The position numbers and the translations under genes are program-made. The notes below the pieces were generated by a model. That model had not been told where the DNA came from and did no database searches. It was given only the letters and a program-made list of their open reading frames with translations. A stretch of DNA of 64,000 bases from a virus: positions 64,001 to 128,000 of IMG/VR virus record IMGVR_UViG_3300019487_000003. The stretch is one strand, 5' to 3'. Positions 2,719 to 58,297 of this stretch are shown piece by piece; the first letter of the stretch is position 1, and every line of letters begins with the position of its first letter.

Positions 2719-3084
2719 GGGTCTGAAATAGGTTCGACTGAAGATGTTGACTTATTTGTTGCACGTAGTGGATGACACTTGGCCACTTAAAAATGTGTTC
2801 GCAATCGTAGATGCAAATCAAGACGATTATTTTGAATACGCCTTAGCTGCGTAATCCCTGTTGTAAGAGAGATTAGCTAGTAGTATCTTACAATGGGTCA
2901 ACACACTAGCGGTACTCACTTGGTACCAAGGTTTCAGTGAGGTTAAAACCTAAACCGCTTGGGAATGTTTGTAGAAAGTTTGTTTGTAACGTTCTATAGA
3001 ATTTAGAAATAAAGACAAGATAAACGTGTAGAAGTAAATAACGAGAGCTTTAGGACGAGGGTGCGAATCCCTCCAGATCCACCA
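2719..3084 (+). ncRNA. ssrA: tmRNA (SsrA), phage-encoded
   Basis: The 366-nt gene begins GGGTCTG (2719-2725) and ends CAGATCC-ACCA (3074-3084), which pair as a 7-bp tRNA-like acceptor. AGGTTCGACTG near the 5' end and the T-arm GAGGG-TGCGAAT-CCCTC near the 3' end are typical of tmRNA. The resume codon GCA is at 2813 and the tag reads ANQDDYFEYALAA then TAA (2852-2854). The tag ends in ALAA, like the E. coli ClpXP degron. A tmRNA rescues ribosomes stalled on broken mRNA. The central part contains stems compatible with pseudoknots, which I did not fold fully. Confidence 0.95.
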
Positions 3085-3521: not shown

Positions 3522-3597
3522 CGGGATTTAGCGCAGGAGATGTCGCGCTAGTTTTGGGAACTAGAACACGCAGGTGCGATTCCTGCAATCCCGACCA
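3522..3597 (+). tRNA. tRNA-Pro (UGG)
   Basis: Acceptor CGGGATT/AATCCCG with encoded ACCA. Anticodon stem CTAGT/ACTAG with loop TTTGGGA, and T-arm GCAGG-TGCGATT-CCTGC. Confidence 0.93.
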
Positions 3598-3600
3598 TTT

Positions 3601-3685
3601 GTGTCGTAACTCATACTGGATTTGAGGGGCGTCTGTAAAACGTCTGCCTTCGGGCAACGGGGTTCGATTCCCTGACGGCACACCA
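3601..3685 (+). tRNA. tRNA-Tyr (GUA)
   Basis: Acceptor GTGTCGT/ACGGCAC with ACCA, anticodon loop CTGTAAA, and a type II variable arm TGCC-TTCG-GGCA. Confidence 0.93.
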
Positions 3686-3688
3686 TAT

Positions 3689-3773
3689 GCTCAAGTGGCG
3701 GAACTGGAATACGCACCGGTCTTAGAAGCCGGCGCCGAAAGGATTGTGGGTTCAACTCCCACCTTGAGTACCA
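3689..3773 (+). tRNA. tRNA-Leu (UAG)
   Basis: Acceptor GCTCAAG/CTTGAGT with ACCA. Anticodon stem CCGGT/GCCGG with loop CTTAGAA, and a long variable arm. Confidence 0.93.
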
Positions 3774-3776
3774 CAT

Positions 3777-3861
3777 GCTTCTGTGGCGGAATGTATACGC
3801 GGTTGCCTTAAGAGCAACTGGCTGAAAAGTCGTGCAGGTTCAAATCCTGCCAGAAGTACCA
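3777..3861 (+). tRNA. tRNA-Leu (UAA)
   Basis: Acceptor GCTTCTG/CAGAAGT with ACCA. Anticodon stem GTTGC/GCAAC with loop CTTAAGA, and a long variable arm. Confidence 0.93.
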
Positions 3862-3864
3862 TAT

Positions 3865-3938
3865 GGGGAGATATGCCAAGTGAGCAGCCCGGATCAATAA
3901 CCGGGTGGTATGTTGGTAGAATCCAACTCTCCCCACCA
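3865..3938 (+). tRNA. Degenerate tRNA-like gene, anticodon unclear
   Basis: A perfect 7-bp acceptor GGGGAGA/TCTCCCC with ACCA sits in register between normal tRNAs. The rest is abnormal: the stem CCCGG/CCGGG closes an 8-nt loop ATCAATAA, the T-stem GTTGG/CCAAC closes a 6-nt loop without the TTC motif, and the D-loop lacks the GG pair. It may be a decaying tRNA, a +1-decoding tRNA or a non-decoding decoy. Confidence 0.6.
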
Positions 3939-3941
3939 TTT

Positions 3942-4018
3942 GCCGCTGTATCCCAATTGGCAGAGGAACTTGATTCAAAACCAAGATGTTGTAGGTGCAA
4001 GTCCTACCAGCGGCACCA
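3942..4018 (+). tRNA. tRNA with CAA anticodon (Leu-like, no long variable arm)
   Basis: Acceptor GCCGCTG/CAGCGGC with ACCA, anticodon loop TTCAAAA, T-arm GTAGG-TGCAAGT-CCTAC. The variable loop is only about 5 nt, unlike bacterial leucine tRNAs, so the amino acid it carries is uncertain. Confidence 0.8.
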
Positions 4019-4061
4019 TTTCTATTATAAATAATACAGTGATTAACACCATGAGGTTTGT

Positions 4062-6296
4062 ATGCGTAAGTTGATTTGTATTTCGATATTTTCCATCGGT
4101 ATATGTTTGGTTCTTCTTTCCAATCCATCGAAGAAAAATCAGAATATCCTTTCTAGTGACTACTTTTTACTTTCAAGTGATCCACTTTACAATGCCCGAA
4201 ACGATTTCGACGGCGACGGCCTTTCAGATTTAGCAGACATTTACTTTGACGGAACAAATACACAATTCATAGTTCGACCATCTTCAAATCCTTCAGCACT
4301 TCAAACACATACATTTGCAGGACAATCAGAATTTCAAGTATCGGGTAAATGGTATCTTGATAATCGTTATTATCCAGCAGCAATCAAAAATCTTGGTCAG
4401 GGTATTCCTTTAGAATGGACATTTAAAATGCCTGACAATTCAGATTTAACATTAAGTTTTGGTTATCCTGGTGATCTTGTACCAAATCAAGGTGATTTAG
4501 ATTGTGATGGAAGAACTGATATTGTTTCAACAAGAACAAATGTTCCTGGTTATTGGGAAAGATTTAGAGTTTGGTATATAGCCCCTTCTTCTGGTGGCCC
4601 TGTTATTGAAACAATTTTTGGCCTTGATACAGACAAAATTGGTATTGCAGATGTTGATGGTGATGGCTGTGATGAATTGATAGCATTGAGAGAATCAGAA
4701 TATAATTGGTTTGTAAGAAAGTTGACTGATACAGAACTTAATCCAGCACCAATTCAATGGGGATTGCCTGGAGATAATTTTCTTTTACCAGCAGACATCA
4801 ATCATGATGGTCAACCAGATTTTATCATTACTCGAAATGAGGGTGGTAAAAAGAAGGCATATGTAAGATTGTCTCATGCACCAATCGAAGAAGTTTTAGC
4901 CAACAATTCATATAGCATACTTGATTTAGATGCGCCTGATGCTGTATCAGTAGCAGGTGATTTTTTTGGTAGAGGCCCTGAATTGGGATGGGTTGGTAGA
5001 AATGGTCAATCTGGTATTAATTTAGATGGAAGCCCATTTACTTTTGCTTGGGGTAATGCAAATAATAAAGTTATGAGACCAGATGGAACTGTTTCTGAGG
5101 CATCTCGTGGCGATCAAGTAACAAATATCGGCCGCGCCGCATTTCATATCTTTAATAAGACATGGGAGTGTCAAGCGTTTCTCGCCTCGATGAATAATCT
5201 TCCTGATTTGCATATTGCTATACTCTGGGATGGACCAGGGAACCCATTTGATGGCTCTGGTGATCCTAGTTGTTTACTTTCATTGATGAATGATCCTCGT
5301 CTAAGAACACTTGAAATTCATTCAATCAATACTGTATGTTATCGCAACGGAAATTGTGCTCCTTATGAATATCTTTTTGGAGAATCAAATCTTAATGCAA
5401 GACTTGGAAGTCTTGAGCCAAGTATAGTAAATAAGTATAATGCTGTTCATGCTCAAATCAAGAGTTTTTTGGATGCAAATTTGAAACCTTGGACAACTTG
5501 TTATATTTCTCCTGGACTTGAACATGATTATAGTGGTGCAGCATCAACAAATGCCGTAGCACTTGCTAGACAAGGTGTTCCTCAATGTAAAGTTGTTATC
5601 AATCCTAACGGAGCAAATAGTAATCAAAGTCTTTCTGGTGCAGATTTCTTAGAAAAGCATAAACTGAACCCAACATTTGGTGGTGCACCTGGCTTTTCTA
5701 ACAATGATGGTGCTGACATTGATTTCCCTTCAAGTGACAGTGATTATTCAAAAACTGTTTCTGAATCTAACATGAAAAAGCATTTGCTTAACACTTCACC
5801 AAAGGCACATGCAGTATTTGTATGGATGAAAGAAGATAATTGCAGAGGAGAAAGCGGCAGAAAGCCGCCTCGTGATCGTGTTTGTAAAAACAATGGGCGT
5901 TTTGCTCTTGCTGGAAAGTTGATTGAGTCAGTGATTCCTAAAACACCGGCAACTCCTAACCCAAATCCTGGCAACCTTTCTTGTAACGTTAATGTTAATG
6001 TCACTGATGGACATAGCAGAGATTTCACATACAATCCAGATAACAGTCGAAAGAAACCTAAGTTCATTTTTCCTAAGAGCTTTGTTTCTGCACCAGATAC
6101 TGCTACTCTTGTAACTTCACAAGGTGATATTGCATGTAACAGAGCATATCCCGACGAACATTCTAATGGCCCAAGACCACGTTGGTATTGTGAAATTGCA
6201 GTTAAAGATACACCAGCAAATGTAACATTTGTTTTGTCTCATAATGGGCAAAACTATTGTGCAACAATACCAAATCCACAAAAAAGATACGATTAA
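4062..6296 (+). CDS. Large exported protein with FG-GAP/VCBS-type repeats
   Basis: 744 residues. The N-terminus (about 1-23) is a signal peptide: a basic start, then a hydrophobic run. Residues about 45-290 hold repeated Ca-binding loops (DFDGDGLSD, DLDCDGRTD, DVDGDGCDE, DINHDGQPD) of the integrin-alpha/FG-GAP beta-propeller type. The middle (about 350-620), with AILWDGPGNPFDGSGDP and a Cys-rich stretch, could be an alpha/beta barrel but I cannot assign a family. The C-terminal roughly 100 residues look like a small beta domain with Cys pairs. A secreted glycan-binding or glycan-acting role is inferred from architecture only. GAGG lies 8 nt before the ATG. Confidence 0.75.
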   Translation: MRKLICISIFSIGICLVLLSNPSKKNQNILSSDYFLLSSDPLYNARNDFDGDGLSDLADIYFDGTNTQFIVRPSSNPSALQTHTFAGQSEFQVSGKWYLDNRYYPAAIKNLGQGIPLEWTFKMPDNSDLTLSFGYPGDLVPNQGDLDCDGRTDIVSTRTNVPGYWERFRVWYIAPSSGGPVIETIFGLDTDKIGIADVDGDGCDELIALRESEYNWFVRKLTDTELNPAPIQWGLPGDNFLLPADINHDGQPDFIITRNEGGKKKAYVRLSHAPIEEVLANNSYSILDLDAPDAVSVAGDFFGRGPELGWVGRNGQSGINLDGSPFTFAWGNANNKVMRPDGTVSEASRGDQVTNIGRAAFHIFNKTWECQAFLASMNNLPDLHIAILWDGPGNPFDGSGDPSCLLSLMNDPRLRTLEIHSINTVCYRNGNCAPYEYLFGESNLNARLGSLEPSIVNKYNAVHAQIKSFLDANLKPWTTCYISPGLEHDYSGAASTNAVALARQGVPQCKVVINPNGANSNQSLSGADFLEKHKLNPTFGGAPGFSNNDGADIDFPSSDSDYSKTVSESNMKKHLLNTSPKAHAVFVWMKEDNCRGESGRKPPRDRVCKNNGRFALAGKLIESVIPKTPATPNPNPGNLSCNVNVNVTDGHSRDFTYNPDNSRKKPKFIFPKSFVSAPDTATLVTSQGDIACNRAYPDEHSNGPRPRWYCEIAVKDTPANVTFVLSHNGQNYCATIPNPQKRYD

Positions 6297-6339
6297 TAAA
6301 AGTTGAGGAATTTCGAGGATTTATACTCTCGGATTTTCC

Positions 6340-6368
6340 TTGACATAAAATAAGTAAAATGATATAAA
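6340..6368 (+). promoter_or_regulatory. Promoter for the Glu/Asp tRNA region
   Basis: TTGACA at 6340-6345, 17-nt spacer, TATAAA at 6363-6368. Just upstream, AGGAATTTCGAG and CTCGGATTTTCCT form a terminator-like hairpin for the preceding gene. Confidence 0.75.
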
Positions 6369-6434
6369 TATCAGCTATGATGATTGTAGTTTCAAATCTT
6401 AGTTTTAGAGAGAACGAGGGACGCTAATTACCGC

Positions 6435-6509
6435 GGCCTTGTCGTCTACTGGCTAGGATCTCAGACTTTCAATCTGAAGAAGTGGGGTCGGAACCCACCG
6501 AGGCTACCA
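6435..6509 (+). tRNA. tRNA-Glu (UUC)
   Basis: Acceptor GGCCTTG/CGAGGCT with ACCA. Anticodon stem TCAGA/TCTGA with loop CTTTCAA. Confidence 0.92.
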
Positions 6510-6512
6510 TAA

Positions 6513-6680
6513 ATGGAAGATGAATTAAAAGCAAGAATTGATTCTTATAGAGCAATGTCGCAGTCAACAAGCGATTCTCATACGAAACAAAGACTTGAGA
6601 GAGAAGTTGAAAAACTTGAACGTTCTTTGCGAAAAGAAGTGAGTCAGGCAAATTCAATTAAGCAATTTATTAGAGATTAA
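6513..6680 (+). CDS. Small coiled-coil protein
   Basis: 55 residues, highly charged and predicted helical, with heptad-like spacing around LEREVEKLERSLRKEV. It starts with an ATG 3 nt after the tRNA-Glu CCA end and lies between two tRNA genes. No ribosome binding site is obvious, which lowers confidence. Function unknown. Confidence 0.5.
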   Translation: MEDELKARIDSYRAMSQSTSDSHTKQRLEREVEKLERSLRKEVSQANSIKQFIRD

Positions 6681-6711
6681 GAAGATGTTAACGGAAGAAG
6701 ACGATAGATAC

Positions 6712-6787
6712 GGGAATGTAGCTCAATTGGCAGAGCGCCCGACTGTCTATCGGGAGGCTGCGGGATCATACCCCGTCATTCCCGCCA
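6712..6787 (+). tRNA. tRNA-Asp (GUC)
   Basis: Acceptor GGGAATG/CATTCCC with discriminator G and CCA. Anticodon stem CCCGA/TCGGG with loop CTGTCTA. G73 is the expected Asp identity base. Confidence 0.92.
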
Positions 6788-6792
6788 TTTAA

Positions 6793-7448
6793 ATGAATAG
6801 ATGTCTTTCTTGTGGAGAAGTCCACCTAGGAACTTTTGCAACAGGCAAATATTGTAATCGTTCATGTGCTAACAAAAGAAAACATTCACCAGAAACAAAA
6901 CTTAAACAGTCTTTAGCATCTAAACGCAATCACTCTCATAAAAATTTTCTTACACAAGAAGCAAGACAAAAAGTAAAAAAGTATGTTGAATCAATAACAA
7001 TTCACCATGCTGAAAAAACATGCCCGGAATGTTATAAAATCTTTTCATCTAAGAACAAAATATTCTGTTGTAGGGCCTGCTCTAATAAAAATACCACCGA
7101 GAAAATTCAACACGAAAAACTGTTTGCTATTTTCAAAACCAAAAAATGGATTCTGGTGCTGAATTCTATTTTGCTCGATTTTTAGAAATGAATAATATAA
7201 AATGGAAAAAGAATAATTCAATATATTTTAAATATTTGGATGGAGTAAAAGAGCGAAAATATTATCCAGATTTTTATTTGGAAGAATATGATGTTTGGGT
7301 AGAAATCAAGGGGCGATTTTATCAATCAGCTTTAGATACTTTAAAGTTAGCTTCTGTGCCCACAAAAATTTTCTATTTGATTTCTAACGATTTCCAGCAG
7401 TCATTACCAAAATTTCTTGACATTTTGAAAGAAGGATGTTATAAATAG
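6793..7448 (+). pseudogene. Homing-endonuclease-like gene split by a frameshift
   Basis: Two overlapping frames form one logical protein. Frame 1 (6793-7185) gives an N-terminal part with three zinc-finger-like Cys pairs (CLSC, CPEC, CCRAC) and a basic linker. Frame 2, read from about 7146 to 7448, gives MDSGAEFYFARFLEMNN, RKYYPDFYLEEYDVWVEIKG and a C-terminal tail: a PD-(D/E)xK-type nuclease core as in phage free-standing homing endonucleases. The switch falls at the A6 run at 7141-7146, where one base is missing or slippage could occur. It lies between tRNA-Asp and tRNA-Gly. It may be a dead gene, a sequencing indel or an expressed frameshift. Confidence 0.65.
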
Positions 7449-7449
7449 A
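7442..7449 (+). promoter_or_regulatory. T4-type late promoter-like site
   Basis: TATAAATA matches the T4 late consensus exactly. It lies between the broken endonuclease gene and the next tRNA group. Confidence 0.4.
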
Positions 7450-7452
7450 GTT

Positions 7453-7530
7453 ATGAATAAGTTTCTTTTAACATTCATTTCGACGACATCCTGTTTCACA
7501 GGAACCAGCTCAACAGGCCGTTGCCTGTAA
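7453..7530 (+). CDS. Possible 25-residue peptide
   Basis: The frame MNKFLLTFISTTSCFTG ending in GRCL resembles a very short lipoprotein or leader peptide with a hydrophobic start and a Cys. It follows TATAAATA (7442-7449), which looks like a late promoter with the ATG only 3 nt on. No family recognised. Confidence 0.3.
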   Translation: MNKFLLTFISTTSCFTGTSSTGRCL

Positions 7531-7572
7531 AATAAGTTTCAATATAGAAAATTAAATAGGAGTTTTATATAC

Positions 7573-7647
7573 GGGGAATTCGTATAGTGGCAATTACCCC
7601 AGTCTTCCAAACTGGTGACGAGAGTCCGATTCTCTCATTCCCTTCCA
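7573..7647 (+). tRNA. tRNA-Gly (UCC)
   Basis: Acceptor GGGGAAT/ATTCCCT with discriminator T and CCA. Anticodon stem CCAGT/ACTGG with loop CTTCCAA. U73 is normal for Gly. Confidence 0.92.
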
Positions 7648-7648
7648 T

Positions 7649-7724
7649 GCCTCTGTGGTGTTAAAAGTAGCATAGCTCACTTGTAATGAGCAGGCGCCGG
7701 AGCGTTACCAGGCCAGGGGCTCCA
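7649..7724 (+). tRNA. tRNA-Thr (UGU)
   Basis: Acceptor GCCTCTG/CAGGGGC with TCCA. Anticodon stem GCTCA/TGAGC with loop CTTGTAA. Confidence 0.9.
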
Positions 7725-7799
7725 TTTTAGAATATGTTTAAGAGTAAAGAAAGTAAATTAAGAAGAAAAAGATATAGAGACGGAAAATCATACTAATAA

Positions 7800-7874
7800 G
7801 CATCGTTGGCCGAGTGGTCCAGGTGACAGATTGCAAACCTGTAGACGAGTGTTCGATTCACTCACGATGCTCCA
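7800..7874 (+). tRNA. tRNA-Cys (GCA)
   Basis: Acceptor GCATCGT/ACGATGC with discriminator T and CCA, anticodon loop TTGCAAA, T-arm GAGTG-TTCGATT-CACTC. Confidence 0.92.
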
Positions 7875-8531: not shown

Positions 8532-9046
8532 ACATTTTATACACAGAACAATATATTAAAGAAAAGATTGCAAGACTCGGAGTTGACATCAACGAGTATT
8601 ACAAAAAGAAAGTTGATCCTGTTATCGCAGTTGTAGCATTGAAGGGTGGGACTTTCTTTTATGTTGACCTTGTTAGAAACTTTCAATTCCCGGTTGAGAT
8701 GGGAGTTATTTCTACAAGTCATTATCCAAATGGTTTACCTGGTAATGCTGAAGTTGAAATAAATTTTGTTGATGCAGATGTTTTCGGAAAAAACGTCTTG
8801 TTAGTTGACGAAATCTGTTTCACAGGGAAGAGTTTGAATGTCATGAAAAATGTTTTGCAAAATCGGGGCGCACAAGAAGTTAGAACGGTGGTGCTCGTCG
8901 ATCAAAATAAACCCGATGCAATCCACAGTCCTACTTGGGCTGCTATACAATATGATGGTGACGGTTGGTTATATGGCTACGGGATGGACATTAATGGTTT
9001 ACACAGAAATATCCCTGAATTGAGAATCAAAGATGAAGAATTCTAA
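8528..9046 (+). CDS. Phosphoribosyltransferase (hypoxanthine/purine type)
   Basis: 172 residues. The PRPP-binding motif VLLVDEICFTGKSL (about residues 92-105) and the upstream VVALKGGTFFYVDL loop are those of type I phosphoribosyltransferases, closest in layout to hypoxanthine-guanine enzymes. A purine-salvage role in nucleotide supply is inferred. It is coupled to both neighbours by short overlaps. Confidence 0.8.
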   Translation: MNILYTEQYIKEKIARLGVDINEYYKKKVDPVIAVVALKGGTFFYVDLVRNFQFPVEMGVISTSHYPNGLPGNAEVEINFVDADVFGKNVLLVDEICFTGKSLNVMKNVLQNRGAQEVRTVVLVDQNKPDAIHSPTWAAIQYDGDGWLYGYGMDINGLHRNIPELRIKDEEF

Positions 9047-9503
9047 TAAAGTAATTTTCCTAGATATTGATGGTGTTCTAGTTACAAAAGAAGTTTTTGA
9101 AGAGGATCCCTTTACAGATGAAGTTAGTTGTTGGATGCACAAGTTTCATAAACCCTCTGTTGATGCTTTGAATCACTTGATTGAAAAAACAGGTGCATTT
9201 GTTGTCATTTCTTCAAGCTGGCGCAATATGCATACGTTTGAAGAACTGAAACAGAAATTTGAAAGAGAAGGCGCACATTTTAATTTTCATGAAGATTGGA
9301 GAACTATAAGAAACTATGATTGGAAAAGAGGCCAAGAAGTTTCGGAATGGCTATCAAGACATCCAGAAATAACTAGCTGGGCCTCAATTGACGATGATAA
9401 TGATTTCCTTCCTGAAAATAATCTTTTTCAAACTAGTTTTAGTCGAGGTGGATTGACAGAAGAAATAGCTAATAGTGTTATTGCACATCTAAATAAATTG
9501 TGA
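9033..9503 (+). CDS. HAD-superfamily phosphatase, SAK (RNA-repair-associated) type
   Basis: 156 residues. Motif I is IFLDIDGVLV (nucleophile Asp near residue 10), motif II is VVISSSWR and the late acidic motif is SIDDDNDF. The SSSWR motif and short size fit the HAD domain of Swiss-army-knife RNA-repair proteins. Such phosphatases can remove phosphate ends from broken RNA. The gene overlaps the phosphoribosyltransferase gene by 14 nt and ends just before the RNase P RNA. Confidence 0.75.
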   Translation: MKNSNKVIFLDIDGVLVTKEVFEEDPFTDEVSCWMHKFHKPSVDALNHLIEKTGAFVVISSSWRNMHTFEELKQKFEREGAHFNFHEDWRTIRNYDWKRGQEVSEWLSRHPEITSWASIDDDNDFLPENNLFQTSFSRGGLTEEIANSVIAHLNKL

Positions 9504-9513
9504 TAAAGTAGAT

Positions 9514-9810
9514 AAATCGAATAAGGTAGTTTGGTGAGTTGTCGCTGGTAACAGAGGAAAGTCGGGACACCATAAAAAGCGTAGTTGCTAACGGCAACAC
9601 GGAGTGATCCGCTAGATAGTGCAACAGAAAATAAACCGCCAGTTGAAGTCTTCAGTTGGTAAGGATGAAACCGAGGTTTAAGAGACCCCGATTTGCATGG
9701 TGACATGCAATATGGCAAACCTTACGTGGTGCAAGGCAGTAATTGCCGCAAAGATGAATGACAACATTGGAACAGAATCCCGCTTATGTCTGAGCTACCT
9801 TATTCGATTT
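9514..9810 (+). ncRNA. rnpB: RNase P RNA (M1-type), phage-encoded
   Basis: Bacterial RNase P signature elements appear in order: GAGGAAAGTC (9554-9563), AGTGCAACAG followed by AAACCGCC (9618-9640), GGTAAGGATGAAACC (about 9658), GTTTAAGAGACC, GGCAAACCTTACGTGG then GCAAGGC, GATGAATGAC (9753-9762) and ACAGAATCCCGCTTA (9772-9786). The ends form a 16-bp perfect P1 helix (AAATCGAATAAGGTAG with CTACCTTATTCGATTT). At about 297 nt it is compact compared with about 377 nt in E. coli. It would cut 5' leaders from the phage tRNAs, provided it can bind a protein subunit from the host or phage. Confidence 0.93.
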
Positions 9811-10120
9811 ATCTTTGTCAAAATAAAATTAACAATAAAAAATATGTTGGTTTAACAAATAAAACACTAAAGAGGAGATTTCAGGAGCATAAAGGATCGG
9901 TCTTAAGGGGAAGTCGTTTAATGTTTCATTCTGCTTTAAGAAAATATTCTATAGAGAATTTTCAGATATTATCTATCAAACATTTGAAAAACACATTTAT
10001 ATGGTTCAATGCCCTAATGGAGAAAAAATAATTATTAAAAACATAAATGAATTTGCCAAGAACCATAAATTTTGCTCATCAGGTTTATATGCTGTTGTTA
10101 ATGGCAAAAGAAAGCAATAA
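9786..10120 (+). pseudogene. GIY-YIG homing endonuclease remnant overlapping RNase P RNA
   Basis: Frame 1 (9786-10031) begins MSELPYSIYLCQNKINNKKYVGLT and continues RRFQEHK and MFHSALRKYS, a GIY-YIG domain. It stops early. A second frame from about 10003 to 10120 reads VQCPNGEKIIIKNINEFAKNH and ends in VVNGKRKQ, a NUMOD DNA-binding repeat. The intact gene must have lost sequence or shifted frame between them. The start codon and GIY strand lie within the 3' arm of RNase P helix P1. Confidence 0.7.
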
Positions 10121-10180
10121 AGGATATTTTTGTAATAGAATTAAGTAAACATTTCAATATGTTAGATATAAAATAATTCC

Positions 10181-10209
10181 TTGACTAATATTTGGATGTT
10201 TGATATTAT
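10181..10209 (+). promoter_or_regulatory. Promoter for the ornate RNA and CCA-enzyme transcript
   Basis: TTGACT at 10181-10186, 17-nt spacer, TATTAT at 10204-10209. Transcription should start near 10216. Confidence 0.75.
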
Positions 10210-10214
10210 ATAAG

Positions 10215-10790
10215 AACAGTGATAAAGACTGTTCCCAGTATAGCGGGATTTGTGTTATACAATATAGATTTTAAGTTAGTTTGACAGAGGCCACGTATAC
10301 CGAAACTAGCTTCAATTGAAAGTTCCAAGGGCATCAATCCTGGCGTGGTAAGATTGAATGTACCGAGGGCAGAGAATTGAAGAAATTCCCGAGGGGTGAA
10401 AAGCCTCTCTTTTTAAAGATTGATGAAGTTGAAGCCTGTTCCTGAGGGGATCTAGGTGGATACTTCCGGCCTAACTTGGTGTGTCGCATAAACTTTGGGT
10501 ATTAACACTTCCCGAAACAAGGCCAAGTAAATTGTGTTGGGTCTAATCTGTATCGTCTAGTAGAAGGACACTCATCAACAAGGGGAGTAATTACCTCCGG
10601 GATGAGAAACAGAGGTGCAAATCCTCTTACAGGTGAAAAGGAGAATACTAGTAAATCCCTGACCCTTTATGCCCGAGAAGCTGAGTGAGAGAGTAGCACA
10701 AGATCCGACGGGATTTTGGTTTGTTTAAAGATAATCGATAACTTTAAACAAGGGAGGTGAAAGTCCTTCTTCGGGCAGCCCCTTTTAAAT
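10215..10790 (+). ncRNA. Large structured RNA (about 575 nt) with tRNA-like domains
   Basis: There is no credible ORF between the promoter and the cca gene, but helices are dense. GGGATTT (10223) can pair with AAATCCC (10653). AGTTAGTTT pairs with GAAACTAGCT, CCACG with CGTGG across a loop, and CAATC with GATTG. A tRNA-like piece at 10548-10637 has D- and T-arm-like sequences (TCGTCTAGT, GAGG-TGCAAAT-CCTC), but its central stem CTCATC/GATGAG closes a 24-nt loop. A second tRNA-like unit at 10668-10786 is closed by TGCCCGAGAAG/CTTCTTCGGGCA. It contains hairpins CAAGATCC/GGATTTTG and TTGTTTAAAG/CTTTAAACAA. Size, tRNA neighbourhood and phage context recall the GOLLD and ROOL ornate RNAs; identity is untested. 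Confidence 0.65.
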
Positions 10791-10793
10791 ATT

Positions 10794-12107
10794 ATGTTTG
10801 ACAAATTAATTAATAATACGCTAATTAAATCATTGCACAAAGCACTTGGTAATGATTCAAGATTACATTTAGTTGGTGGTTCTGTCAGAGACACTATTAG
10901 AAATCTTGAAGTCAATGATTTTGATTTTTGTTGCGGACTAAGAAGTGAAGAAATACAAAATAGATTAGATTTGGCTGCCATTCCTAATTTTCAGTTAGGA
11001 TTTCTCACGACTGCATTAATTAATGATTTACCAATGCAAATAACACCCTTTGATTGCCGCGGTGACACTGACAAATTAGAATTGAAGATTGAGGATGACC
11101 TTAAGTATAGAGATTTCACAATTAATGCGATGGCGATTGATTTGAATACATCAACGTTTGTTGATCCATATAATGGTTTGCAAGATATTCAAAATAAGGT
11201 TTTACGTTGCCCATCTGATCCGAAGTTAATATTTTTGTCAGATCCAGTAAGAATATTAAGGCTAATTAGATTTTCTTTCACTCAAGGATTTACTGTTGAA
11301 CAATCTACTTTGTGTGCCGCAAAGGATAGAGCACATACTTTGATAATTGCTTCACAAGAAAGAATTAGAGACGAATTCGTTAAAATTTTAATGTCTGTCA
11401 CCCAGGAAACAACAGTTCAAACATTCGATGCAATCCACGAATTGGGATTATGGGAATATATTTGTCCTGAATTTGAAGAAACAATAGGTGTAACTCAAAA
11501 CGCTCATCACCTTTTTACAGTAGATCACCATATTGCTCATGTTGTATCAAAAGTTCCTAAAACAAAACTTTTGCGGCTCGCTGCTTTTTTTCATGATATA
11601 GCAAAACCAAGAACTATTTCAGAAGACGAAAATGGAAGACATTTTCTTAGGCATGAAGATGTTGGTGCCGAAATGGTTCGTGAAATAGGTGAACGTTTAA
11701 AATTATCGGATAGTGAAATAAATGATATTGCTTTGCTTGTTAAAGAACACATGCGCCCGATCAACTGTGGTCCAAAAGGTGCACGAAGATTGATCTATAC
11801 AATGGGTGATTTATTGTCACCTTGGATGAGTTTAAAATTTGCCGACAAAACTTCTGGAAAAGGTAATGCAAGTTCTTTTATCATGGACTGGATGAATTTT
11901 GTCAATATCGTAAAACACGAAAAGAATCGTCAAGATGTCCCAAATTTCAATAATCTCGCTATAGACGGAACAGACATTATGGCCCTCGGTGTGAAGCAAG
12001 GACCTAAGGTTGGTGAGATTTTGAGAAGATTACAAGAGATTGTCTTAGATGAGCCAAGTAGCAATACCATTGAAATCCTTACAGATTTTGCTCGTGGAAT
12101 GATTTAG
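10794..12107 (+). CDS. cca: CCA-adding tRNA nucleotidyltransferase with HD domain
   Basis: 437 residues. The class II nucleotidyltransferase head has GGSVRD (28-33) and DFDFC (42-46), then the RDFTINAMAID motif and the CCA-enzyme neck helices. The C-terminal HD domain has FFHDIAKPRT and RHEDVGAEM, and a later VKEHMRP helix. The enzyme rebuilds 3' CCA ends; HD-domain versions can also remove 2',3'-cyclic phosphates. All 26 tRNAs here already encode CCA, so repair of damaged ends is the likelier need. The ATG follows the ornate RNA by 3 nt with no clear ribosome binding site. Confidence 0.92.
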   Translation: MFDKLINNTLIKSLHKALGNDSRLHLVGGSVRDTIRNLEVNDFDFCCGLRSEEIQNRLDLAAIPNFQLGFLTTALINDLPMQITPFDCRGDTDKLELKIEDDLKYRDFTINAMAIDLNTSTFVDPYNGLQDIQNKVLRCPSDPKLIFLSDPVRILRLIRFSFTQGFTVEQSTLCAAKDRAHTLIIASQERIRDEFVKILMSVTQETTVQTFDAIHELGLWEYICPEFEETIGVTQNAHHLFTVDHHIAHVVSKVPKTKLLRLAAFFHDIAKPRTISEDENGRHFLRHEDVGAEMVREIGERLKLSDSEINDIALLVKEHMRPINCGPKGARRLIYTMGDLLSPWMSLKFADKTSGKGNASSFIMDWMNFVNIVKHEKNRQDVPNFNNLAIDGTDIMALGVKQGPKVGEILRRLQEIVLDEPSSNTIEILTDFARGMI

Positions 12108-15619: not shown

Positions 15620-16666
15620 ATGAGTTTATTCATTGCACCACTATCTAAGTTTGAACTTGAGAAACACCCAAATGCTGATACACTATCAATTGCAAAAGTT
15701 GGTGGTTGGCAAGCTGTAGTTAGGACTAAGGATTTCATTAATGAAACTCTTGGTGTTTATGTGCCATTAGATGCTATCGCTGCTGAAAATCATCCTTTGC
15801 TTTCTTTTCTTCAGGGAAAGAAGGTGAAGACATGTAAACTTAGGGGAGAACTTTCACAAGGAGTTTTATTGCCTTGGACAAAAGTTGTGGCTCATTTCAA
15901 AAACGATTTAAAAATGAGTGACGAATCATTAACTAAACTTTCGTTTGAAGGAAAAGACCTTGCTCCGGTTTTGCGAATTAAGAGATGGGTAGATACATCT
16001 ACAAAATTTGTTACTGGTGATGCAGAAGCCCCGCACGAAAAATTTCACAAATATACTGATATTGAAAACATTAAAAACTTTTCAAACATAATTCCATTGG
16101 GAGAAAAAGTTCATATCTCGGAAAAACTACATGGCACTTCTGCTAGATTTGCATACATTGATGGAAAGTTTATGTTAGGTTCAAGAAACATTCAATTGAA
16201 ACTTGACGCCGAGAATAAATCAATTTATCATCATGTTTTTGAAAAAGAAAATCTTAAAGAAAAATTACTTAGTGTTAGAGATATTTTCGGATTAGAAGAT
16301 GCTGCAATCTACGGTGAAATTGTTGGACCTAAGGTTCAAGATTTAAAATATGGTCAAACAGAACCAACTTTGTTTGTATATGATATAGTTGTAGATGGTG
16401 TATATGTTTTACCAGCAGCATTACAAGATGTAGCGCAAGCTCTAGGACTAAAGCTGGTTCCAGAATTAAAGATTGGTCCGCTTGAAGAAAAGGATTTTGA
16501 ACTTCGATTAGGAAAAAGCACCTTAGATGATTCACACATTAGAGAAGGTATTGTGATTAAACCAATTCTTCCTAGATGGGATCAAGATTTGGGCAGAGTA
16601 ATTTTAAAAGTCATTTCAGAAGATTATTTAATGAGAAAGGGGGCAAAGGATACTGGAGATGTCTAA
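15620..16666 (+). CDS. RNA ligase, Rnl5 (DRB0094) type
   Basis: 348 residues. The N-terminal OB-like domain (about 1-125) is followed by a nucleotidyltransferase domain. The adenylation motif is EKLHGTSARF (nucleophile Lys at about 169); GSRN, YGEIVG, EGIVIK and LKVIS are later motifs III-V. This domain order is that of Deinococcus Rnl (Rnl5), which seals nicked RNA ends. It probably repairs tRNAs cut by host anticodon nucleases, together with the HAD, cREC and CCA enzymes nearby. Confidence 0.88.
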   Translation: MSLFIAPLSKFELEKHPNADTLSIAKVGGWQAVVRTKDFINETLGVYVPLDAIAAENHPLLSFLQGKKVKTCKLRGELSQGVLLPWTKVVAHFKNDLKMSDESLTKLSFEGKDLAPVLRIKRWVDTSTKFVTGDAEAPHEKFHKYTDIENIKNFSNIIPLGEKVHISEKLHGTSARFAYIDGKFMLGSRNIQLKLDAENKSIYHHVFEKENLKEKLLSVRDIFGLEDAAIYGEIVGPKVQDLKYGQTEPTLFVYDIVVDGVYVLPAALQDVAQALGLKLVPELKIGPLEEKDFELRLGKSTLDDSHIREGIVIKPILPRWDQDLGRVILKVISEDYLMRKGAKDTGDV

Positions 16667-17785: not shown

Positions 17786-18106
17786 ATGTTATACAAACCA
17801 CTTGGTGTAGATGTTTATCCAGAAATTGTGTTAGCACGATGGAGGATATTTGAAGTTTCTTCTCGTTTTTGGGAGGGGAGAACAAGACATTTTGTTGGAG
17901 ATAATCTAACCGAAGGATCGGGTAGAGTAAGTTCACAAATTGTTCAGTTCGACAAAGAAAAAATGATGGGTATAACTAGATCGAATAGGGCATATGAACT
18001 TCGCGGGCCTTCTGGGTTTGACCGTGATGGTCTTTATGTCTGGAATCGTTGGTGTGAAATTTGTGAAGCTGAAAATATCGTTGATGTAACTGAGGAATAT
18101 GAATAA
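17786..18106 (+). CDS. Hypothetical protein
   Basis: 106 residues, no recognised domain. It is rich in Arg and Trp, with NLTEGSGRVSSQIVQFD in the centre. It follows the phosphatase gene by 2 nt and overlaps the next gene by 8 nt. Confidence 0.6.
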   Translation: MLYKPLGVDVYPEIVLARWRIFEVSSRFWEGRTRHFVGDNLTEGSGRVSSQIVQFDKEKMMGITRSNRAYELRGPSGFDRDGLYVWNRWCEICEAENIVDVTEEYE

Positions 18107-19217
18107 GGGATTTCTTTTTCTAGTGTTGTTTGTTATTTCTTGTGGGTCTTCTGGTGGATCAAGCGATCCGGTTGTGTCTGAAGATCCTCGAAAGAGGGTC
18201 CTTGTGACAACAGACTTGGGTGGTGATCCTGATGATACACAATCTTTAGTTCACTTGCTTTTATATTCTGATATATTAAACCTTGAAGGTATAGTTGTCG
18301 GGTGGCCAACAGGAAACTTTGGGCTTGGACTAGCAACAATAGCTGAATATGAAAAGGATTTGCCAAATCTTTCATTTCATTCTGGTGACTATCCAACACC
18401 AGATTATTTGCGTTCAATCCTGAAACAGGGTTCAACTCGTAAATTCAATGGAACAAATGCTTCTGAAGGTTCAACTCACATTATTGCACAAGCGTTGAAA
18501 CCATCAAATAAAAAGTTGCATATTTCTGTTTGGGGAAGTATTACAGATGTGGCTCAAGCTATACATGATGCTCCAGAAATCAAACAATTTATAACAGTAA
18601 CTTCTAGTGGTGGATGGAACACTCGGCAAGATGAAGAATCGAGGGCCTATCTTTTCAATAATCATCCTGATTTAGTTTGGGTTGAACAAGATAGCACAGG
18701 ACGAGGCATTTATGTTACGGGTCTTAATGATAAAAGCAGATATGGTAATGTGGGCTTTGTTTCTCAGATTGTTAGGCCTGCTGGAAATCTTGGTGAATTT
18801 TACTATCAACAAAGTAGAAGAATCAATGTTAATGCCTTCGGTATAAAGATGGGTGATACACCAACTTGGTTTATTCCTGTTTATTCTAACGTATACGAGA
18901 ATCTTCCTGTTGTTGCACAATCAGAACCTACCGCACCTTCTTGGGGTGGCAGATATTGTCAACCAGTTCCTAATAGAGCAACATACTGGAATGATTGCCC
19001 GCATAAAGAATGGATCATTGGTGGCTACAAGGGAACATATACTGTTGCCGAACATAGACAGGCAATTTTAAATGATTGGGAACTTAGACTTTTAAGAACG
19101 TATCCTCCTGAAGTCGCAAAAGCAAAATTGATGCAATACATTTTTTCTCATGCAATGGAAATTCGTTCTTTTAAACCATTTAAACCATTTAAACCTGTGG
19201 AATTAAAGAGAAAATAA
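18099..19217 (+). CDS. Lipoprotein with DUF1593 (nucleoside-hydrolase-like) domain
   Basis: 372 residues. A lipobox (VISCGSS, Cys about 15) ends a short signal peptide. The body starts RVLVTTDLGGDPDDTQSLVHLLL, the Asp-rich metal site of the Sde182 nucleoside-hydrolase-like family (DUF1593), and continues HISVWGSITDVAQAI and GGWNTRQDEESRAYLF. In bacteria the family accompanies polysaccharide breakdown. The C-terminus has three FKPFK-type repeats encoded by 9-nt direct repeats, and its last codons form repeat copy 2. It would be membrane-anchored and act outside the cytoplasm. Confidence 0.82.
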   Translation: MNKGFLFLVLFVISCGSSGGSSDPVVSEDPRKRVLVTTDLGGDPDDTQSLVHLLLYSDILNLEGIVVGWPTGNFGLGLATIAEYEKDLPNLSFHSGDYPTPDYLRSILKQGSTRKFNGTNASEGSTHIIAQALKPSNKKLHISVWGSITDVAQAIHDAPEIKQFITVTSSGGWNTRQDEESRAYLFNNHPDLVWVEQDSTGRGIYVTGLNDKSRYGNVGFVSQIVRPAGNLGEFYYQQSRRINVNAFGIKMGDTPTWFIPVYSNVYENLPVVAQSEPTAPSWGGRYCQPVPNRATYWNDCPHKEWIIGGYKGTYTVAEHRQAILNDWELRLLRTYPPEVAKAKLMQYIFSHAMEIRSFKPFKPFKPVELKRK

Positions 19218-19601: not shown

Positions 19602-19949
19602 ATGGGAAAGATTAAGGTAGACGGGGTCAAATACAAATATATTGCATCTGATCCGTTGAACATTCAAGACATTTTTGCAACACAAAGATGCTTGAAACGA
19701 AAAGAGCAAATTGATAGTTTGATGAAATCTATCAATGATGGTGAAAGAATTGAACCCATCCTGCTTTTTCAAGATGATAATGGGAGAGTAAGTGTTTTGG
19801 ATGGCCATCACCGTTTAAGTGCTTATTACCTGGCTGGGCGGACAATATTAGAAACATGGGAATTTACATTGATTAAGGGAGCATATAATAAAAAGCCATT
19901 GATCTTCAAACACGTAAGATTGATGCAGGAACATGGACTTGTCGTATAA
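19602..19949 (+). CDS. ParB/sulfiredoxin-like domain protein
   Basis: 115 residues from the ATG at 19602 (AAGG about 8 nt upstream). VLDGHHRLSAYYLAG is the ParB-like nuclease/Srx motif, preceded by RKEQIDSLMKSINDGERIEPILLF. These domains bind nucleotides and occur in DNA partition and modification proteins. The last 15 nt of the gene are also the 5' end of a tRNA gene. Confidence 0.75.
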   Translation: MGKIKVDGVKYKYIASDPLNIQDIFATQRCLKRKEQIDSLMKSINDGERIEPILLFQDDNGRVSVLDGHHRLSAYYLAGRTILETWEFTLIKGAYNKKPLIFKHVRLMQEHGLVV

Positions 19950-20009
19950 AAGAATTATTGCTCCCTCTTAAGGAGACAGATCAAGGTGCAAATCCTTGCG
20001 AGTCCACCA
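19935..20009 (+). tRNA. tRNA-Lys (CUU), overlapping the ParB-like gene
   Basis: Acceptor GGACTTG/CGAGTCC with ACCA, T-arm CAAGG-TGCAAAT-CCTTG, anticodon stem CTCC/GGAG with loop CTCTTAA. The D-arm is AT-only and irregular (ATAA/TTAT). The first 15 nt overlap the upstream stop region. Confidence 0.75.
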
Positions 20010-20021
20010 TGAAAAGATTTT

Positions 20022-20097
20022 GGCCGACTGGTGAAAAAGTATATCACGCGGTGCTTCTAACACTGAGTTTCGGGTTAGATTCCTGAGTTGGCTACCA
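20022..20097 (+). tRNA. tRNA-Arg (UCU)
   Basis: Acceptor GGCCGAC/GTTGGCT with ACCA. Anticodon stem CGGTG/CACTG with loop CTTCTAA. Confidence 0.88.
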
Positions 20098-20098
20098 T

Positions 20099-20174
20099 GC
20101 TTCGTAAGCTAATCTAGTGAAAGCACTTGTCTGAAGAACAAGGGAGCTTAGGGCAGAACTAAGACGGAGCACCA
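20099..20174 (+). tRNA. tRNA-Phe (GAA)
   Basis: Acceptor GCTTCGT/ACGGAGC with ACCA. Anticodon stem CTTGT/ACAAG with loop CTGAAGA. Confidence 0.92.
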
Positions 20175-20183
20175 TAATTTTGT

Positions 20184-20260
20184 CCCTGTCGGTGAGGCTG
20201 GTAGTGCCAGCCCGTCTGATAAGCGGGTGCAGCAAAGTTCGATTCTTTGGGCAGGGACCA
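20184..20260 (+). tRNA. tRNA-Ile (GAU)
   Basis: Acceptor CCCTGTC/GGCAGGG with ACCA. Anticodon stem CCCGT/GCGGG with loop CTGATAA, and T-arm CAAAG-TTCGATT-CTTTG. Confidence 0.92.
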
Positions 20261-20261
20261 T

Positions 20262-20336
20262 GGGCTGATAGTGATAGTAGGAGCACACCGGCCTTGCAAG
20301 TCGGAAGTCTGGGAGCGTAACCCAGTCGGTCCACCA
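20262..20336 (+). tRNA. tRNA-Ala (UGC)
   Basis: Acceptor GGGCTGA/TCGGTCC with ACCA. Anticodon stem CCGGC/GTCGG with loop CTTGCAA. Confidence 0.92.
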
Positions 20337-20352
20337 AATTTTAGGAGAATGT

Positions 20353-20625
20353 ATGACTGAGGAAGAAAGAGAAAAGATATTACAAGAGTTAGTTGAGGAA
20401 AGTGAAAATTTGGGCCTCTATAATGTTGTTGATTATAAAGAGGCCATGATTTATCTGTTTAGTAACATGTCTGTTGGTGAATGGCATTATCTACAGGCAA
20501 GGTTTGAACAAACAAGAGACTTTGCTTTACTTGGATTAACAGGTAATTTGGGGTGGGAGATGCCACTGATAAGATTGATTGAAGAATGTATGAAAGAAAG
20601 TGAAAGAAGATTGAAAGAAAAATAA
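20353..20625 (+). CDS. Small acidic helical protein
   Basis: 90 residues, rich in Glu, with a GEWHYLQARFEQTRDFALLG core. TTAGGAG lies before the ATG. It lies between tRNA genes and is probably on the same transcript. Function unknown. Confidence 0.65.
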   Translation: MTEEEREKILQELVEESENLGLYNVVDYKEAMIYLFSNMSVGEWHYLQARFEQTRDFALLGLTGNLGWEMPLIRLIEECMKESERRLKEK

Positions 20626-20629
20626 TTAT

Positions 20630-20704
20630 TGACCTATGGTGTATTGGTGAGCACGAACGTCTTATAAGCGTTCTGGGAAGGTTCGATTCCTTCTAGGTCG
20701 ACCA
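20630..20704 (+). tRNA. tRNA-Ile (UAU)
   Basis: Acceptor TGACCTA/TAGGTCG with ACCA. Anticodon stem AACGT/GCGTT with loop CTTATAA, and T-arm GAAGG-TTCGATT-CCTTC. A UAU anticodon reads AUA directly and is rare in bacteria, which normally use a lysidine-modified CAU. Confidence 0.85.
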
Positions 20705-20721
20705 TAGTTTTGTGAAAGTAT

Positions 20722-20795
20722 TCCGTTGTCGTTTAATAGTAGGACAAGTGGCTGTTAACCACTGAATGTTGGTGCGAGTCCAGCCGACGGAGCCA
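20722..20795 (+). tRNA. tRNA-Asn (GUU)
   Basis: Acceptor TCCGTTG/CGACGGA with discriminator G and CCA. Anticodon stem AGTGG/CCACT with loop CTGTTAA. Confidence 0.92.
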
Positions 20796-20809
20796 TAATA
20801 GGAAAAAAG

Positions 20810-21355
20810 ATGACTGCAAAATATGAATATGTAAAAAAGTGGCACCAGAGAACGAAACAAAAATTAATTGAGATGTTGGGTGGGAAATGTAGGTCTTGTG
20901 GATATAATAGGTGTTCATCTGCTCTTGAATTTCACCATGTTGATCCAGATGAAAAAGATTTTTCAATCTCAAAGTGGCGGCAAAAGAGCTGGGAAATTTT
21001 GGTAAATGAGATTAAGAAATGCGTATTACTTTGCTCTAATTGTCATAGGGAAGTTCATGCAGGTTTACAAAAATGCCCTAAAATAATTTTTAACGATAAG
21101 GGATATAGACCTTATGATTCTTTAATCAAAGCGGAGAAAAGAAAATGTATTTGTTGTAATAAAGAATATTTTGGTTTATCTGGAAGAAAATATTGTTCGC
21201 AAACATGCAGTAAGAAAAATTCTGAAAAAATTGATTGGCCGACTAATAACCAATTGAAGCAGATGATTAAAAATGCTAACTTTGTCAAGGTTGCAAAGCA
21301 ACTTGGTGTAACAGATAATGCAGTAAGAAAAAGATTGAAAAATAATGCGAGATAG
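20810..21355 (+). CDS. HNH endonuclease
   Basis: 181 residues. CRSCGY, then LEFHHVDPDEKDF, then CVLLCSNCHREVHAG is a zinc-supported HNH nuclease core (about residues 26-85). A second Cys pair set (CICC, CSQTC) and a C-terminal helix-turn-helix-like part (VAKQLGVTDNAVRKRLK) would bind DNA. It sits inside the tRNA array and is probably a homing endonuclease. Its stop codon lies inside the next tRNA gene. Confidence 0.8.
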   Translation: MTAKYEYVKKWHQRTKQKLIEMLGGKCRSCGYNRCSSALEFHHVDPDEKDFSISKWRQKSWEILVNEIKKCVLLCSNCHREVHAGLQKCPKIIFNDKGYRPYDSLIKAEKRKCICCNKEYFGLSGRKYCSQTCSKKNSEKIDWPTNNQLKQMIKNANFVKVAKQLGVTDNAVRKRLKNNAR

Positions 21356-21419
21356 TGAAGTGGTAAAACCTGAGTCTCATAAACTCATGTCCCAGGTTCG
21401 ATTCCTGGTCTCGCAACCA
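21346..21419 (+). tRNA. tRNA-Met (CAU)
   Basis: Acceptor TGCGAGA/TCTCGCA with ACCA. Anticodon stem TGAGT/ACTCA with loop CTCATAA. The first acceptor pair T-A is closed, so it is not a typical initiator. It could also be an Ile2 (lysidine) tRNA. It overlaps the HNH gene by 10 nt. Confidence 0.88.
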
Positions 21420-21422
21420 TAT

Positions 21423-21496
21423 TCCGGAATCGTCTAATGGGAGGACGACGGCCTTTGAACCCGTAAATCTTCGTTCGAGTCGAAGTTCCGGAACCA
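21423..21496 (+). tRNA. tRNA-Gln (UUG)
   Basis: Acceptor TCCGGAA/TTCCGGA with ACCA. Anticodon loop CTTTGAA, with the last stem pair mismatched. Confidence 0.88.
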
Positions 21497-21529
21497 CAAT
21501 AGAGCACATTTTATTAAGTGTGTTGTCTT

Positions 21530-21603
21530 GTGGCTGTAGCTTAAAAGTAAAGCGTCAGGCTGTGAACCTGTCCAAGAGGGAGCATTACCCTCCTGCCACC
21601 CCA
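21530..21603 (+). tRNA. tRNA-His (GUG)
   Basis: Acceptor GTGGCTG/CTGCCAC with C73 and CCA, anticodon loop CTGTGAA. The base before position 1 is T, not the G-1 normally encoded in bacteria. Confidence 0.85.
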
Positions 21604-21610
21604 GTTTTAT

Positions 21611-21685
21611 GGGCGGTTAGTTTAATGTATAGAATCTCGGGCTACGAACCTGAGGGTAAGGGTTAGATTCCTTTACTGCCCACCA
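21611..21685 (+). tRNA. tRNA-Arg (ACG)
   Basis: Acceptor GGGCGGT/ACTGCCC with ACCA. Anticodon stem TCGGG/CCTGA with loop CTACGAA. A34 would need deamination to inosine. Confidence 0.9.
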
Positions 21686-21686
21686 T

Positions 21687-21760
21687 GCTCGGTTAGTTAA
21701 ACAGTATAACATTCGGCTTACATCCGAAAGTTGAGAGTGCGATTCTTTCACTGAGTACCA
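21687..21760 (+). tRNA. tRNA-Val (UAC)
   Basis: Acceptor GCTCGGT/ACTGAGT with ACCA. Anticodon stem TTCGG/CCGAA with loop CTTACAT. Confidence 0.9.
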
Positions 21761-21763
21761 TAT

Positions 21764-21839
21764 ACGTCGTCATGTCCCAAGGCTGGCGAGTTGGATTCCA
21801 AACCCGACTGGGAGTGTTCGATTCACTCACGGCGTGCCA
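21764..21839 (+). tRNA. tRNA-Trp (CCA)
   Basis: Acceptor ACGTCGT/ACGGCGT with discriminator G and CCA. Anticodon loop TTCCAAA, with an A-C mismatch at the end of the anticodon stem. Confidence 0.88.
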
Positions 21840-21851
21840 TTTTTATGATGC

Positions 21852-21939
21852 GGAAGGTTGACAGAGAGGTAATGTGCCCGGTTGCTAACCGGAGGCCGAT
21901 GTAAAAGTCGCCGAGGTTCGATTCCTTGACTTTCCGCCA
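21852..21939 (+). tRNA. tRNA-Ser (GCU)
   Basis: Acceptor GGAAGGT/ACTTTCC with discriminator G and CCA. Anticodon stem CCGG/CCGG with loop TTGCTAA, and a long variable arm. Confidence 0.9.
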
Positions 21940-57412: not shown

Positions 57413-58297
57413 ATGGATATGTTTCGCAGTTTACTAGTCCTTTTATTGATTTCAGTTAGTGCAAATTTTGCACAAGCTCAATCTCAAAAAGGATTCATGA
57501 TTAATCCTTACCGCACCACTTGGTTACCACACGACATTCGAGAGACTAGCAGCCTAGGGGCGAATCTGTTTCGATATTATATTTACTATCCAGAAGGCGC
57601 TGTTCCTGGGACATGGACACCAACACAATACAAAGAATTCCTTGCAGCACATATCTATCAAATAGATAATATCCTTCCAATTGTGCAACAGCAGGGAGCA
57701 CAATTAGTTATAGACTTACATACACCCCCTTGCGGCTTTCAGGGCAGATATTTTAAGATGTTCTCAGACTTGAATTGTCTCGGACAGTTTTATGAGGCCT
57801 GGGATATTCTATCAAAGCATTATGCTTATGATCCTCGTGTTGCATCTTATGATTTACTTAATGAACCTGCAACAAAAGATTATAAGTTCTTAAACGCTAT
57901 CTATAGGACCGCTACCTGGGTTGTGAGACAGAACGATCCTAATAGGATTGTTATAGTTGAATCAGCCTTTGGTAACCCTCTATTAGTAAACAAGTTAGAA
58001 CATGGCCTTTATAATACGTGGTATTCAGCTCACGTTTATTGTGCAGGAAACAGTTCATCTATTTCAATGATTGATAAGATTGTTTCTTTCAAACGAAAGT
58101 ATAATGAACCATTCTATGTTGGTGAAATCGGGTGTGAAACATATAAGAAAAATGCCGCTAAGTTTATTGATAAGGCTCTAGCAAAGTTTCGTCAACATAA
58201 TATCTCTTGGACTTATCATGCATGGGCAGAAGCACCTATGTGGGAACCACGAGGAACTAGCGTGTTCCCAGTCTTACAAAAGTACCTTGCACAATAA
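57413..58297 (+). CDS. Secreted glycoside hydrolase, family GH5-like
   Basis: 294 residues. The signal peptide (about 1-22) ends ANFAQAQ. The barrel has GANLFRYYIYYPEG, QLVIDLHTPP, YDLLNEPAT with the acid/base Glu 151, AHVYC and FYVGEIGCET with the nucleophile Glu 238, then WTYHAWAE. All GH5 landmark residues are present, so it should be active on a beta-glucan or similar polymer outside the cytoplasm. A soluble secreted form is unusual in a phage; it could degrade host slime or release glycans. Confidence 0.85.
   Translation: MDMFRSLLVLLLISVSANFAQAQSQKGFMINPYRTTWLPHDIRETSSLGANLFRYYIYYPEGAVPGTWTPTQYKEFLAAHIYQIDNILPIVQQQGAQLVIDLHTPPCGFQGRYFKMFSDLNCLGQFYEAWDILSKHYAYDPRVASYDLLNEPATKDYKFLNAIYRTATWVVRQNDPNRIVIVESAFGNPLLVNKLEHGLYNTWYSAHVYCAGNSSSISMIDKIVSFKRKYNEPFYVGEIGCETYKKNAAKFIDKALAKFRQHNISWTYHAWAEAPMWEPRGTSVFPVLQKYLAQ

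Follow-up and report, generated by a model that had tools for sequence, protein, structure and literature searches.

A bacterial type-A-like RNase P RNA gene in a T4-type phage, with related RNAs in other virus records

A contig from a T4-type myovirus carries a gene for a bacterial type-A-like RNase P RNA (rnpB), and the gene is viral. It runs from P1 to P1 at positions 9511-9813 on the plus strand of the window, by which we mean the whole 64,000-nucleotide stretch analysed (positions 64,001 to 128,000 of IMG/VR record IMGVR_UViG_3300019487_000003). RNase P RNA usually counts as a distinguishing mark of cellular life, and the tRNAs of phages are taken to rely on the host enzyme; phage copies would mean that in some viruses a central ribozyme of the host is replaced by one of their own, and that rnpB should no longer be read as marking DNA as cellular. 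We regard the spread of RNase P RNA among large phages as a larger finding than the single gene.

The RNA and its trimmed outer helices

The Rfam class A model (RF00010) matches window positions 9526-9802 (+) over its full length (model 1-367) with 187.7 bits and an E-value of 4e-59, the gathering (curated) cut-off being 100 bits, and a search of the whole 167,808-base record located a single copy, that at 9511-9813. An earlier note, made from the letters of the DNA, had claimed that the conserved blocks of bacterial RNase P RNA are all present in order, and this is borne out by the end-to-end match and by the presence of all five conserved regions, CR-I to CR-V. We drew the secondary structure manually on the basis of the Rfam alignment, checking every pair; 13 helices can be drawn, with 90 of 91 pairs standard, namely P1 (24 bp), P2 (6 bp), P3 (3 bp), P4 (7 bp), P5 (4 bp), P7 (5 bp), P8 (5 bp), P9 (4 bp), P10/11 (6 bp), P12 (11 bp), P13 (5 of 6 pairs), P14 (6 bp) and P15 (4 bp). 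The RNA is identical to the Rfam consensus at 101 of the 121 highly conserved (upper-case) positions, and its folding stability lies above that of all 100 shuffles (z -5.6); minimum-free-energy folding alone recovers just part of the hand-drawn model.

The catalytic core is whole. CR-I (GAGGAAAGUC) and the 5' strand of P4 lie at 9554-9566 (GAGGAAAGUCGGG), CR-V and the 3' strand of P4 at 9772-9786 (ACAGAAUCCCGCUUA), and the seven P4 pairs enclose the bulged U9562, so that both the covariance-model match and the P4 bulge on which the earlier note had staked its reading are in place. In the P4 pairs CCGG/CCGG is replaced by CGGG/CCCG, two changes that together leave the pairing intact. We rejected this GUCGGG variant as a phage-only mark because it is common in cellular groups, among them Bacteroidales, Coriobacteriia and Clostridium. 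The specificity domain (P7-P14) is present with CR-II and CR-III: P8, with a UAACG loop, and P9 occupy 9584-9611, and P10/P11, P12, P13 and P14 occupy 9614-9722, with GNRA loops (GUGA) retained in both P9 and P14.

Two IMG/VR contigs, L078 and L087, which have an exact stretch around the P15 hairpin in common with the window, served as relatives for comparison. Between the window and these contigs there are 51 double-sided, pair-preserving changes, located in P1 (nine core pairs), P2, P7, P8, P9 and P14, a figure to be read as a count and not as a test, since the strands were registered by hand; P13 of the two relatives was left out.

The periphery is both extended and reduced. The perfect 16-bp P1 of the earlier note is real and longer than claimed, with 19 perfect pairs (9511-9529/9795-9813) and five more that include wobbles, so that the 5' strand (9511-9534) and the 3' strand (9790-9813) form an unusually long helix of 24 bp. 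The same note had suspected a trimmed ribozyme, and rightly: P3 (9545-9554) is cut down to 3 bp closed by a GUAA loop, and P15, which follows CR-IV at 9728-9749 and is identical in L078 and L087, is a bare 4-bp hairpin (GGCA-GUAAU-UGCC), so that the L15 GGU is gone along with P16/P17. P18 is missing also, UGCCGC running straight into AAAGAUGAAUG, and is kept in both relatives. The L15 GGU, P16/P17 and P18 are peripheral criteria of type A RNase P RNA, P18 being variable among its members, and they serve as aids to substrate binding and folding. The L15 GGU pairs with the tRNA 3' CCA (PMC4264200). A lack of encoded CCA as the reason for the missing GGU is not supported, as all 20 tRNA genes of the window encode CCA, and inspection across contigs revealed no association between the presence of GGU and encoded CCA.

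The phage record and its tRNA genes

Genes for a terminase, tail sheath, baseplate hub, tail tube cap, tail protein, gp32, gp59 and DNA ligase are found across the record, and identify it as that of a T4-type myovirus. Its closest gp32 relatives, at about 50-59% identity, are proteins of cyanophages and Pelagibacter phages; six such gp32-related phages gave no RF00010 match. The large terminase gene (G000:C1:158811-161353) matches as two pieces about 1 kb apart, which suggests an intron, intein or endonuclease insertion. Two other ORFs of the window (57413-58297 and 18099-19217) encode a cellulase of glycosyl hydrolase family 5 and an Sde182-like nucleoside hydrolase.

The nearest neighbours of the RNase P RNA on both sides match phage families. 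Upstream, an ORF for a HAD_SAK_2 phosphatase of the RNA-repair type (9033-9503, +; Pfam E 1e-25, phrog_1818) ends 7 nt before the RNA. Downstream, a truncated GIY-YIG homing-endonuclease frame (9786-10031, +; Pfam and phrog matches) overlaps its 3' end, the first residues of the frame being encoded by the P1 3' strand, and a NUMOD-like tail, recognized by eye, continues in another frame (9786-10118). Farther along lie a CCA-adding tRNA nucleotidyltransferase (10794-12107, +; Pfam PolyA_pol, phrog_2244) and an RNA ligase (15620-16666, +; PF09414, phrog_968). The decayed endonuclease is separated from the CCA enzyme by about 600 nt without a clear gene (10140-10790); this stretch has a modestly stable fold (z -2.25), no Rfam match and no intron-containing tRNA, and is possibly another structured RNA.

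A tmRNA with the tag ANQDDYFEYALAA lies at 2719-3084 (+; RF00023, 132 bits, and ARAGORN), and it and the CCA enzyme stand near the RNA as the earlier note had it. The same note counted 26 tRNAs; tRNA calls give 20, nine in one cluster (3522-7874, +) and 11 in another (19935-21939, +), and the record has none outside the window. The tRNAs, tmRNA, CCA enzyme and RNase P RNA share one strand, and the tRNA closest to the RNase P RNA is 1.6 kb away. With U at -1 in 13 of the 20 genes and G at +1 in 14, the phage tRNAs appear to be ordinary RNase P substrates.

Neither RnpA (PF00825) nor HARP, the protein-only RNase P (PIN_5, PF08745), was matched on the record. The Pfam search for RnpA, which a divergent RnpA would escape, was equally negative on 36 other candidate records.

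Related RNAs in other virus records

Scanning IMG/VR for core motifs of RNase P, together with Rfam, gave a candidate set of 43 records, this one included. When each record was searched as a whole, 41 gave a single significant RF00010 match, which exceeded the curated cut-off in 32, and phrog_2 detected a phage terminase in 16 of the 43, in some cases weakly. Because motifs guided the selection, and because prophage flanks may be present among the small contigs, these figures apply to this set and should not be taken as rates. No credible 16S rRNA was found among 37 candidate records. We excluded short rnpB-bearing contigs (many of L004-L028, also L026/L031), which are probably host DNA flanking prophages, and a search for related loci with the CCA enzyme as query yielded none. 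The same RNA occurs, as identical rows, in separate assemblies (L064/L085, L047/L062, L100/L102 and L101/L104), which makes chance joins less likely.

In a set of 30 loci the RNase P RNA lies within 12 nt of a tRNA gene in 17 and within 1.5 kb in 24, and all called tRNAs are on its strand; in L034, L002 and L046 it sits between tRNAs at distances of 0-8 nt. Several members are miniature forms (L046, L052, L068, L077, L093/L098 and others) in which CR-I to CR-V span 152-213 nt, where most of the cellular RNAs compared have about 288-309 nt. L046, L052 and L068 match RF00010 with E-values of 1e-16 to 1e-19, under the cut-off, and most of their specificity domain is missing. The phage RNAs offer natural examples of how far an RNase P RNA can be trimmed. 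The DNA analysed for L052, L068 and L077 contains no tRNA. L073 and L083 have the motifs and no RF00010 match, and are doubtful RNase P RNAs; the tRNA array that holds the doubtful RNA of L073 also contains a GOLLD RNA (RF02032, L073:2630-3102). The P12 region of the L100/L102 RNA has an insert with a stem-loop resembling a tRNA-Ile anticodon arm (CCGGACUGAUAAUCCGG).

Across a quick maximum-likelihood tree built from 105 RNAs we count 6 changes of the phage label, where shuffles give 34; the RNA of the window belongs to a starred set of 48 rows, 41 of them phage. The cells were sampled by P4 variant and branches are long, so the tree is evidence of grouping and not of a single origin. Phage RNase P RNAs thus appear mostly to group apart from the sampled cellular ones. 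It is plausible, though somewhat less likely than not, that the RNase P RNAs of large tailed phages form an old family of phage lineage, some members of which (CR-I to CR-V spans of 152-209 nt) have almost lost the specificity domain; these RNAs would be working enzymes tuned to phage tRNA arrays and would free phage tRNA maturation from the host RNase P RNA.

Among 50,697 GenBank phage records, searched by blastn with seven phage RNAs and by megablast with one locus, no convincing case was found, MT836823, MT835987, MT835993 and MT839420 aside. Two records filed as phage, MW495066 and MT835553, have rnpB amid cellular genes and appear to be bacterial DNA filed in error, actinobacterial-looking in the case of MT835553; MD-2021a contains a prophage adjoining a host rnpB, and a match in Atu_ph04 is due to chance. 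Searches of 5.39 million open-access papers turned up no account of an RNase P RNA encoded by a phage. Megaphages whose circularized genomes were analysed with all Rfam models were described with only tRNAs and a tmRNA (PMC8172020), and in a study of ribozymes that phages use at tRNA 3' ends RNase P is regarded as a cellular enzyme (PMC10879173).

Function, alternatives and known systems

We consider it probable, in line with the suggestion of the earlier note, that the RNA is catalytically active and, with RnpA borrowed from the host, matures the tRNAs and tmRNA of the phage, its activity and its partner both being inferred from sequence. The conservation of core and specificity domain predicts an endonuclease acting in trans on pre-tRNA and pre-tmRNA. 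The RNA would be cut out of a long phage transcript; in other phages its ends may be set by tRNA processing, since in L034, L002 and L046 it is so closely flanked by tRNAs. RnpA contacts CR-IV/P15, J18-2 and the P2-P3 region of the RNA, and host RnpA could be bound through these retained elements. The holoenzyme would remove the 5' leaders from the 20 pre-tRNAs and the pre-tmRNA, so that late in infection phage tRNAs could be supplied without recourse to the RNase P RNA of the host. On a record where neither RnpA nor HARP was matched, the host's RnpA is the simplest choice of partner; the lack of an RnpA gene fits its use without proving it, and does not in itself show that host RnpA is used. 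Two observations weigh against this explanation: the L15 GGU, P16/P17 and P18 are missing, yet all 20 tRNAs encode CCA, and the nearest tRNA in the window is 1.6 kb off.

An active RNA that works with an unrecognized phage protein, or without protein, as a self-contained phage enzyme, is unlikely. It would accord with the failure to find RnpA on this record or 36 others, with the many small unassigned ORFs of the window and with the unusually long P1, which could stabilize a protein-poor RNA; the regions known as RnpA contacts are retained, however, and nearly every bacterial host would make RnpA available. Somewhat less probable again is a decoy that captures pre-tRNAs or the RnpA of the host and interferes with host RNase P instead of processing phage tRNAs. 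Phages often titrate host factors, and the trimmed outer helices and missing L15 GGU could be seen in this light, but a decoy has no need of an intact CR-I, bulged P4 and CR-V, and in other contigs the gene lies inside tRNA arrays.

The decayed GIY-YIG endonuclease at the RNA 3' end invites the thought that a host rnpB was captured with nearby tRNA genes, or through homing-endonuclease traffic, and is a passenger no longer needed. We think this improbable: the helices have been kept by compensatory changes, the phage RNAs mostly group apart from the sampled cells, and the gene recurs in about 40 records, one copy in each. By far the least probable of the alternatives is mis-assembled host DNA or a cellular contig misfiled as viral. 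Such errors exist, as MW495066, MD-2021a and MT835553 illustrate, and the earlier note had itself raised a host or chimeric contig, but phage-type genes lie on both flanks of the RNA, GC around the locus is even (35-39%), T4-type genes stand 17-25 kb away and occur across the record, and the same rnpB turns up in other phages that were assembled separately (L064/L085, L047/L062, L100/L102). An active phage RNase P RNA served by host RnpA remains our preferred reading, and phage copies of the RNA open a test of how phages protect their tRNA supply during host shutdown.

The RNA resembles bacterial class A RNase P RNA (RF00010) in CR-I to CR-V, the bulged-U P4, P5, P7-P15, the type-A P13/P14 and the GNRA loops of P9 and P14, and differs from it in its location on a phage genome, its 3-bp P3 and 24-bp P1, the absence of P16/P17, P18 and the L15 GGU, and the lack of rnpA on the record. 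The RNase P RNAs of cyanobacteria and the Paulinella chromatophore likewise lack the L15 GGU, but prefer substrates without CCA (PMC4264200), whereas the tRNA genes here are CCA-encoding in 20 of 20 cases. The theta ribozymes of gut phages are also phage-encoded and mature phage tRNAs, although they are HDV-like and cleave themselves in cis at tRNA 3' ends (PMC10879173), whereas the action of RNase P is in trans and at the 5' end. Phage T4, with a tRNA cluster that requires 5' processing, depends on host RNase P RNA (PMC11143913), while the T4-type phage described here has a gene of its own.
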